Assembly: GCA_016873995.1 (NCBI GenBank)
Contig: VGVR01000002.1
Coordinates: 62,001 to 126,000 of the forward strand
Reading direction: 5' to 3'
Source of the DNA: Gemmatimonadota bacterium
GTDB lineage: Bacteria > Gemmatimonadota > Gemmatimonadetes > Longimicrobiales > Gaopeijiaceae
Length of the DNA: 64,000 nt
Shown here: positions 31,597 to 41,700 of the stretch, in pieces
Layout of the letters: every line of letters begins with the position of its first letter
Numbering within the stretch: the first letter of the stretch is position 1
Position numbers and translations under genes: made by a program
The notes under the pieces: model-generated
What the model was told of the DNA's origin: nothing
The model's database searches: none
What the model saw: the letters and a program-made list of their open reading frames with translations, nothing else

Positions 31597-31683
31597 GTGG
31601 TATCCCGCTGGCTCCCGGGGGATCCTTGAAAGTCGAGTCGGGAGAGCTACCGTTCACGCAGCACCCGCTTCCGGAGGGATCCG

Positions 31684-33117
31684 ATGAAAGCACGCACGAA
31701 AGTCCTCGCGGCCCTGCTCGTCGTCGCCGGCGCCTGCGCGGTGAACCCGGCGACCGGAAGGCGCGAGCTCTCGCTGGTGAGCGAGGGCCAGGAGATCGCG
31801 ATGGGACGGGAGGCCGATCCGTAGATCGCCTCGCAGTTCGGCTTGGTCGAGGATGCGGAGCTCGCCGCGTACGTCACGAGCCTCGGCAATCGACTGGCGG
31901 CGAGCTCGGAGCGCCCAGGCCTGCCATGGTCGTTCAAGGTCGTCGATGACCCGATTGTGAACGCGTTCGCGCTTCCTGGCGGTTTCATCTACGTGTCGCG
32001 CGGCATCCTCGCCAACTTCGAGAGCGAGGCGGAGCTCGCCGGCGTGCTCGGCCACGAGATCGGCCACGTCACCGCGCGCCACTCGGCCAGCCAGATGAGC
32101 CGGCAGCAGCTCCAGCAGATCGGGCTGGGGGTCGGGATGATCTTCTCCGAGACCGTGCGCGACTACGGCCAGCTCGCCATGGCGGGGCTGCAGCTCATGA
32201 ACCTGCGCTACTCGCGTGGTGACGAGAGCGAGTCCGATGCGCTCGGTCTCCGCTACATCGGCCGTGCGCAATACGATCCGGAGGCGATGATCGGCGTCTT
32301 CGAGATGCTGGCATCGGTGAGCGGGAGCGGAGTCGGCCGCGTGCCCGAGTGGCAGCTCACGCACCCCTACCCGGAGAACCGTGAAGCCGCGATGCGGCAG
32401 ATGATCGCGGAGCAGGGGCTCGCCCCCGGGGGACGCGTCGCGCGCAACGAATACCTCGATCAGATCGACGGGCTCGTATACGGGGCCAACCCGCGCGAGG
32501 GCTACTTCAAGGGCACCCGATTCGTGCACCCCGAACTCGCGCTTGACCTCACGTTCCCGGCTGGCTGGACCACGATCAACCAGCGCACCCTGGTCGCGGC
32601 GGTCGCGCCGCAGGAAGCCGCGGTCCTCATGATGGAGATCGTCACGGATGCGAGCACACCGGAGGCGGAGCTGCGGGAGTTCCTCGCGCAGCAGGGGATC
32701 ACGGGCGGACAGGTGCGACAGGACGGGTCGGGTCAGATCGCGCGCGCGCGCGCGATCTTCGACGCCACCACCGAGAGCGGCGTGATCTCCGGTGAGGTTG
32801 CCTACATCCGCTATGGGACCAACTTGTACCGGATGCTCGGCTACGCCTCGCAGGCGAGCTGGCGCTCGTTCGCCAGCCTGGTCGCGGCGGCCATCACGAC
32901 GTTCCAGCCGCTGACCGACCGCGCCATCCTGGCCGTGCAGCCGTGGACGATCGACATCGTCACGCTTCCGGGTGCGACCTCATTGCAGACGTACGTGAGT
33001 CGAAACCCCTCGCCCATCCCAATCGAGGAGCTGGCGCGGATCAACAGGGTGACGCCGAGTGAAGTGCTGTCGGCGGGCACGCGCATCAAGCGGGTGGTGG
33101 GCACAGCGCTGCCGTAG
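31684..33117 (+). pseudogene. M48 metalloprotease lipoprotein with in-frame amber stop
   Basis: An M48-type zinc protease (BepA/Oma1-like), normally a lipoprotein acting in the periplasm on outer-membrane assembly. Reading from ATG 31684 (strong GGAGGGA before it) gives a lipobox (VVAGAC), then CAVNPATGRRELSLVSEG and GREADP, then TAG at 31822-31824 exactly where I expect the Gln of the family's GREADPQI motif; the same frame continues IASQFGLVEDAEL and stays open for another 431 codons. The rest is complete: zinc motif HEIGH (about 124-128), third ligand in the ESESD segment (about 181-187) and a C-terminal LysM-like segment. One base (CAG to TAG) explains it. TAG is an ordinary stop in neighbouring genes, so reassignment is unlikely. 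A TTG at 31843 could give a form without the lipoprotein signal. Confidence 0.85.
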
Positions 33118-33277: not shown

Positions 33278-35920
<2,643 letters not shown>

Positions 35921-38718: not shown

Positions 38719-41700
38719 GCCCAGTCAGTCGCCAGCTCTCCGAGCGAGTCGAGTCGGTGCGCGCGCACCTGCGCCGCCGCGTTGCGCTCGCCGTCGGCGC
38801 TTGGGTGGCGGGCGGGGTCGTGCTCGTGCTCGCGGTCGCTTGGTTCGCCGTGGGGACGGACGGATGGCGCCCGGGGAGCAATGTGCCGGCGCTCCTCGAC
38901 GCGCTCATCGTCGCTTGGATCATCGCCGGGCTGGTCGCGTTCAGGGTCGGCACCGGGCGTTGGTTCGGCGAGGTGACGCTCTCGCGCGCCATCGAGCGCG
39001 CCGCTGGACTTCAGCCCGGCGTCGTGCGGGGCTCGCTCGAGCTGACGCGCAGCGTGCGGCCGGGCGTCTCCACTGCGCTCGTCGATCGGGCCATGGCCAA
39101 GACCGTCGCCGGGCTCGACGGCCGCGGGGAGGAGGAGCTGTCGGGAGAGCTGGGGCGCACGGTCGCGCTCTGGAGTCGACGTGGCTTGATCGCATCCACC
39201 GTTGCCGCGGCGGGGCTCGTGGCGCTCGGTGTCGCTTCGCCGAGCCGCACGGCGGACGCATGGGCGGGGTTCTCGTCTCCGGTCAGCACCATGTTGAACC
39301 CCACCCTGGCACCGCTGGTGGTGGCCCCGGGGACAATCGAGGTCATGCGAGGCAGCGACGTGCGCATCGACATCGAGGCCGTGGGTAGGCTGCAGGTCGA
39401 CTTGCACTTCCAGATCGCCGGTGACGTCGCGCGCTCGGTGGGACTCGAGGTGGCGGACGGCCTCACGAGCTACGCGTTCGAGGACGTCTCGGCGAGCATC
39501 GACTATCGCGTGCGTGCCCCGGACGGCGCCGAGTCGGCGGCGTTCCGCATCGTCCCCATCGATCCGCTCTTCGTGAGCGACCTGGTCGTGAACGTCGAGT
39601 ATCCCGGGTACACGGGCATCCCGCCGGACGAGTACCGCGGTGACCCGCCGCCTCTCCGCCTCCCTGCAGGAACGCGGCTGACGTTCGAGGGGCTCGCGTC
39701 CCGTCCGCTCTCGGCGGCCACGCTCGTCGACTCGCTCGGTGCGGCGGCGCTGACGCTCGACGTCGACGGCACCGCGTTCTCCGGCGCTTGGATGCCGCAG
39801 CGCGGGGGAGTCTTCCCCTGGATCTTCCTGGACGAGGCGCGCACGCCTGCCGAGGTGCAACCCGACCCGCTCGAGATCCTGGTGGTGCCCGATTCGATTC
39901 CCGAGGTCGCGATCCTCCTGCCGGCAGGACACACGGTCCTGCCGCTGTCCCTGCAGCAGCCGTTGGTGATCGACGCACGCGACGACTACGGGCTGGCCCG
40001 GTTCGAGCTGGTCGCCTACCGGGTGACGGTGTTCGGGGAGCGCCAAGAGCCGGTGGTGCAGGGCCTCACCCTCGGCGGCACCCGCGGCGCGCTGGCTCGC
40101 CCCGCGCTCGACCTCACGACGTGGGGGCTGCTCCCGGGGGACACGGTCAGGTACTTCGCGCGCGTGATCGATACGCATCCCAGTGGTCAGGTCGGCGTGT
40201 CCGCCGAGTACGCGCTCCGCATGCCCATGGTGAACGAGCTACGGCGCGAGGCCGAGGAGACGCTGGAGAACGTCGCCGACCGCCTCGACGCGCTGCGCGC
40301 CGAGGCCGAACGGCAGGCGGTCGAGAATGCGAATCAGGCACTCGAGAACCAGGCGCAGGCCGCCAACGCACCCGAGCCCCGCAACGGAAACGCCAACGAA
40401 CCGGCGTTCCAGCAGCGCGAGCAGATGCAGCGCGCCGCGGATCAACAGCAGGGGCTGATGTCGCAAGTCGACTCGCTGTCGGCCGACCTCGCCGAGCTGC
40501 AGAAGATGCTCGAGGACCTCGGCCAGGCGGACCCAGAGCTCGCGGCTCAGCTCGAGGAGCTGCAGGAGCTGCTGCAGCAGCTGTCGAGCCAGCAGGAGTT
40601 GGAGCGCGACCTGGAGGCGTCCCCGCAGCGCGGTGACACGCCCGCTCCCGAGATGCCCCGCGACCCGGAGCTGCTCCGACAGCAGCTCGAGGAGGCGGTC
40701 GAGCAGTTCCGCAGGGCGGCGGTGGAGCAGGACTTCCGAGCCACCACCGACGAGGCCGAGGAGCTGGCACGTCAGCAGCGCGCGCTCGCCGAGGCCATGC
40801 GCGAGGCCGACAACCAGGAGCTGCGGGCCGAGCAGCAGTCACAGCTCGGCGACCGCGCACAGCAGTTGGACGCCGACATGCAGGCGCTGGCCGAGCGCCT
40901 CAATCAGCTCGACGAGCCGCAGGCGGCGGCCGACGTCGAGCAGGCGCGTCAGAGCGCAGCCGACTCGCGTCAGCAGATGCAGCGAGCCGAGCAGCAGGCG
41001 CAGCAGGGCAACGACCAGCAGGCCGCCCAGCAGGCGCAGCAGGCCGCCGATCAAATGCAGCAGGCCGCCGATCAGATGCAGCAGGCGCAGGGCGACATGC
41101 AGCAGCAAACGCAGGCGGACGCGCAGGCGGCGCTGCAGCAGGGCGCCGACGACGCCCTCTCGCTCGCGCGCAGCCAGGCGGGTCTGATGCAGCGCATGCA
41201 GGGCGCGAGCCCGGAGCAACTCAGCCAGATGAGAGGCGAGCAAGCTGCGATCCAGCGGGGCCTCCAGAACCTGGCCGAGAACCTACAAGCGGGCACGCAG
41301 CAGGCCGGCTCGGACCCGGCGCTGTCGGCTCAGGTGGGCCGCGCGATGGAGGCGACCCAGCAGGCCCTGCAGGCGCTCGACACCCGCAACAGCTCGGCGA
41401 GCCAAGCGTCGCAGCAGGCGCAGCAGGCCCTCAACAGCATGAACCAGCTCGCCATGATGGCGATGGCGAGTGCCGAGCAGGCAGGGTCGGTAGGGGCTGG
41501 CCAGAGCGGGCAGGACATCGCCGAGCAAGTCGGTCAGCTCGCGCAGCGCCAAGGCGACCTGGTGGCCCAGGGCGGCGAGATGGCACCGATGCGCCTCGGC
41601 GAGCAGGCCATGCGCCAGCAGCTCGAGCGCCTCGCCGAGCAGCAAGGTCAGGTGGCGCGAGACATCGAGACCGCCTCTCGCGAGCCGGGGGCCGACGACG

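Follow-up and report, generated by a model that had tools for sequence, protein, structure and literature searches.

A lone amber codon in an M48 metalloprotease gene of a Gemmatimonadota draft genome: probably a recent, unremarkable null allele or an error in the draft assembly

A 64,000-nucleotide stretch of the draft genome of a Gemmatimonadota bacterium (“the window”; the genome is referred to as G000) contains an M48 metalloprotease gene that appears intact except for a single amber codon, and the question is whether this codon is decoded in some special way, marks a loss of the gene, or exists in the draft sequence alone. The frame opens at ATG 31684, reads MKARTKVLAALLVVAGACAVNPATGRRELSLVSEGQEIAMGREADP up to the TAG at 31822-31824, and ends at a second TAG (33115-33117). 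The original prediction of an ATG frame with a good Shine-Dalgarno sequence and an internal TAG is borne out by the sequence, as is its description of the remainder as undamaged, with the HEIGH motif in place (codons 124-128, 32053-32067). The features of the locus are as follows.

31673..31678, + strand: Shine-Dalgarno sequence GGAGGG ahead of ATG 31684 (from the sequence)
31684..31824, + strand: 5' piece of the M48 gene, 46 codons closed by TAG, with the N-terminal signal region and the start of the family's N-terminal part (N-terminus compared with congeners)
31822..31824, + strand: lone in-frame TAG, codon 47, the single one in the gene (homologues have no stop at this column)
31825..33117, + strand: open remainder of 430 codons and the TAG terminator, with the complete catalytic domain and the C-terminal part
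31843..31845, + strand: TTG, codon 54, the earliest in-frame start-like codon past the TAG
31864..32403, + strand: Peptidase_M48 domain, residues 61-240 (Pfam PF01435, 130 bits)
33278..35920, + strand: ClpB, conserved downstream neighbor (90% and 83% identical in two congeners, same order)

The protein belongs to family M48 (PF01435) based on a score of 130.1 bits against a gathering cut-off of 20.3 and the presence of HExxH. It shares the M48 catalytic domain and this motif with the beta-barrel assembly-enhancing protease BepA/YfgC, and the likeness spans residues 22-239 (NCBIfam, 130 bits; PDB 6sar and 6ait). Unlike BepA, however, it falls far under the equivalog cut-off (NF052400; 130.3 bits against 570), and its C-terminal half (240 residues) has no Pfam match. 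The top PDB sequence match is 3c37, an M48 family peptidase of known structure (residues 27-242, E = 2.6e-30), the 253-residue chain of which lacks the C-terminal half. The N-terminus contains ALLVVAGAC, in which Cys 18 is kept in two congeners and Ala occupies position -3, where a lipobox usually has Leu, Val, or Ile. The product is an ordinary M48 metalloprotease and is probably exported.

Homologues were collected from related genomes (a match in 67 of 78) together with 34 named loci, and none of the approximately 60 fetched homologous loci covering the site has a stop at the column of codon 47. This absence from relatives is what is expected of a recent nonsense pseudogene. Counted by row, the residues at this column are Gln (24), Glu (14), Asp (9), Ala (6), Ser (4), Gly (3), and Pro (1), with a few records entering the count twice; the site is therefore variable, with no fixed Gln. 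The expectation of Gln at 31822 is thus correct only in part. A comparison of the codon in the nearest relatives, suggested in the original prediction, returned sense codons: the closest, Baikal-deep-G153 (G003, locus L035; M48 78% identical), has Gly (GGG), and the next (G001, locus L036; 67% identical) has Gln (CAG). Relatives whose genes begin after this codon would point to a misplaced start, and none were found among these two congeners; both genes begin upstream of the stop column with the same N-terminus (MNTRPKLL..., MSLRTVCS...), and a later start codon was rejected on these grounds. A second lone amber suspected in this gene of the more distant relative G061 was rejected: as codon 474 of the aligned stretch, it is the normal terminator.

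The gene order RidA, ORF223, small ORF, M48, ClpB, ORF165, epimerase-like gene, and thioredoxin is kept in G001 and G003, the latter having an insertion between M48 and ClpB. The absence of M48 from a further congener, G002, is uninformative because its contig stops 676 bases upstream of clpB, and a close clpB was not found in congener G004. A second intact copy of the gene in the G000 assembly was rejected because the next match is 38% identical; it is the closest of three further M48-domain genes in the genome, all of them intact.

That TAG is reassigned or efficiently suppressed across the whole genome would fit the occurrence of lone TAG codons in more than one gene, but it is unsupported because release factor RF1 (prfA) is present and intact (472 bits against a cut-off of 423), TAG is a frequent terminator (308 of 856 sampled genes, or 36%, alongside 500 TGA and 48 TAA), and none of the 47 tRNA genes in this approximately 95% complete genome has a CUA anticodon (anticodons by ARAGORN). 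Genes are interrupted by TAA and TGA as well, and we regard this explanation as having a negligible chance of being correct. The earlier argument against a reassigned code, drawn from neighboring TAG terminators, is hence strengthened, while the search for a suppressor tRNA left amber suppression without support. Nothing indicates recoding of the M48 TAG.

Two observations on tRNAs were made along the way. ARAGORN called a tRNA-Gly (acc) at 39986-40076 of the window, within a 1105-codon ORF, which is probably a false positive because it is absent among the Rfam tRNA matches. Near polA, both G000 (L132:207-290; G000:C18:2106-2188) and G003 (L244:1509-1592) have a Leu-like tRNA with a long variable arm; the two are 84% identical, and their anticodons, GCG in G000 and GTC in G003, fit neither Leu nor Ser.

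The background of such stops in the same genome was estimated by scanning stretches totaling 1.37 Mb for stops that have strong coding potential in the same frame on either side and are not closely followed by an ATG (sensitivity 0.50, from simulated stops in sampled genes). The scan listed 55 sites, mostly gene boundaries, and manual reading of the list left approximately 19 lone stops within genes (13 TAG, including that of M48, 3 TAA, and 3 TGA), with two probable selenocysteine TGAs kept apart. The search for more genes with a single internal TAG, which the original prediction had proposed, was therefore positive. Twelve of the lone stops were accepted on their coding potential and the appearance of the protein, and in the remaining seven genes homology spans the stop.

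31822..31824 of the window, + strand: M48 gene, lone TAG, homology across the stop
G000:C2:165676: PF13826 monooxygenase, lone stop, homology across the stop
G000:C3:1121: PIN-domain gene, lone TGA, homology across the stop
G000:C4:14203: glyoxalase-like gene, lone stop, homology across the stop
G000:C4:17076: acyl-CoA-oxidase-like gene (by eye), lone stop, homology across the stop
G000:C4:109780: ECF sigma factor, lone stop, homology across the stop
G000:C11:917: GGDEF gene, lone stop, homology across the stop

Corrected for sensitivity, the lone-stop load amounts to approximately 4% of sampled genes. Random single-base changes of the genome's codon usage are expected to yield 63-65% TAG, and the observed 13 of 19 is no excess over 64% (P = 0.44). 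The special status implied for the M48 stop is unsupported, since all three kinds of stop together interrupt several per cent of sampled genes, in a mix that matches random substitutions. Lone stops are numerous in this draft genome, and the one in M48 is nothing exceptional among them. Elsewhere in the assembly, three lone TAGs lie within approximately 700 bases (G000:C5:68618-69337), one in a plastocyanin-like gene and two in an adjoining sensor-like gene, and this stretch is perhaps decayed.

The same reading of other genomes bears on whether the stops are real. In the sister draft G003, 0.40 Mb yielded about four lone stops, at positions that differ from those in G000; for example, its ORF165 carries a TAG where G000 has a sense codon. 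In contrast, three genomes of the family consisting of one contig each (G026, G008, and G029; 0.8 Mb) showed no lone stops on manual reading apart from two selenocysteine-like TGAs in G029, whereas the pooled draft rate predicts 10.4 (P(0) = 3e-5; P(0) = 0.017 with the homology-backed rate alone). The load is thus approximately 13 per Mb in the two drafts of the genus, compared with none in 0.8 Mb of single-contig sequence, a comparison in which draft status is confounded with genus. These figures give weight to a consensus or assembly error, in which position 31822 starts a sense codon in living cells and the TAG is confined to the draft sequence. The stop mix of random substitutions is in line with such an error, as is the predominance of lone nonsense (4) over frameshifts (1) among orthologues in G000 by manual reading; low-coverage assembly creates internal stops, and the load found here is also what errors would give (PMC11017572). 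On the other hand, errors alone would require approximately 1.3e-3 substitutions per base, a high rate for contigs some 200 kb long (180-218 kb in this draft), and at least one interrupted gene, the HNH-like gene near G000:C1:169816 with a stop plus a frameshift, looks truly decayed. We lean toward real recent alleles over errors because of this high error-only rate for contigs this long, and consider an error at 31822 a substantial but lesser possibility.

The divergence of the M48 gene was compared with that of its neighbors, counting changes unique to G000 and changes unique to G003 with G001 as the outgroup. Amino-acid changes in the own and sister lineages number 35 and 27 in M48 against 98 and 73 in six neighbors (Fisher P = 1.0), and M48 is therefore evolving no faster than its surroundings. 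Moreover, the M48 copy is unaltered at all 81 columns that at least 93% of homologues conserve. Because there is neither extra amino-acid change nor damage to conserved columns, the TAG is either very young or not real. For the seven genes together, the ratio of amino-acid to synonymous changes is 133/173 in the own lineage and 100/192 in the sister (P = 0.02), which hints weakly at selection being less strong overall or at scattered errors.

Taken as a whole, the evidence makes the M48 stop most probably a recent null allele of an ordinary kind or an error in the draft assembly. Recent loss, assembly error, and strain mixture, all raised in the original prediction, are each possible and together form by far the best reading; amber suppression, raised with them, has no support. 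Somewhat better than even, in our estimate, is the case for a very recent, real single-base nonsense change, that is, an ordinary null allele. We infer that the allele is present in the sampled population, perhaps still segregating, and not just in the assembly; error takes most of the rest of the probability and readthrough the small remainder. Bacteria commonly carry real in-frame stops that are short-lived (PMC7918605), and the recent nonsense pseudogenes and in-frame stops described previously share with this case a single stop in a gene that is selected and otherwise intact (PMC7918605; PMC11017572). Such stops are short-lived or assembly artefacts, and the M48 case adds nothing distinctive to them.

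For a real null allele, translation would end after 46 codons, ahead of the M48 catalytic domain, and with no well-placed restart downstream of the TAG the gene as written would be null. A restart at TTG 31843 was rejected because no Shine-Dalgarno sequence lies within the preceding 20 bases, and a product begun there would be without the signal. The expected outcome would be loss of this protease, which the three other intact M48-domain genes could soften by compensation. Alternatively, the nonsense may be tolerated, with low-level readthrough or a downstream restart still supplying some protease. The variable site would accept many inserted residues, selection on M48 is no more relaxed than on its neighbors, and many bacterial in-frame stops have been argued not to be pseudogenes (PMC7918605). 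Yet RF1 is intact, no suppressor tRNA was found, the sole near restart is the TTG described above, and the sister genome lacks the stop, so that nothing suggests its maintenance; tolerated nonsense is improbable here. Still less probable is a broader version, in which several per cent of the genes of the genus carry real, tolerated, partly read-through stops, with an unusually high level of segregating lone nonsense alleles. If true, lone nonsense alleles would persist in the genus without immediate gene loss.

In-frame TGA codons of a different kind were also encountered. In G000, two AhpC/TSA-family peroxiredoxins have a TGA at the active-site Cys (L138:1805, G000:C4:1805, and L166:9865, G000:C5:49865; contexts ..RTPG*TVQ.. 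and ..RGHW*PYC..), and both are probable selenocysteine codons. The genome has tRNA-Sec (G000:C45:5445-5537, 66.7 bits) and SelB (G000:C24:39100, 305 bits), and folding gave no significant hairpin just 3' of either TGA. The two TGAs in G029, in a formate-dehydrogenase-like gene (CSRA*HAPTV; L264:8673, G029:C1:108673) and an AhpD-like gene (CFY*TQAH; L266:1764, G029:C1:141764), are by eye probable selenocysteine sites as well. Having caught the two peroxiredoxin TGAs, the scan is able to detect recoding where it is present. The M48 gene serves mostly as a caution: before recoding is inferred from one conspicuous amber codon in an otherwise intact gene, the background of such codons has to be counted across the genome.
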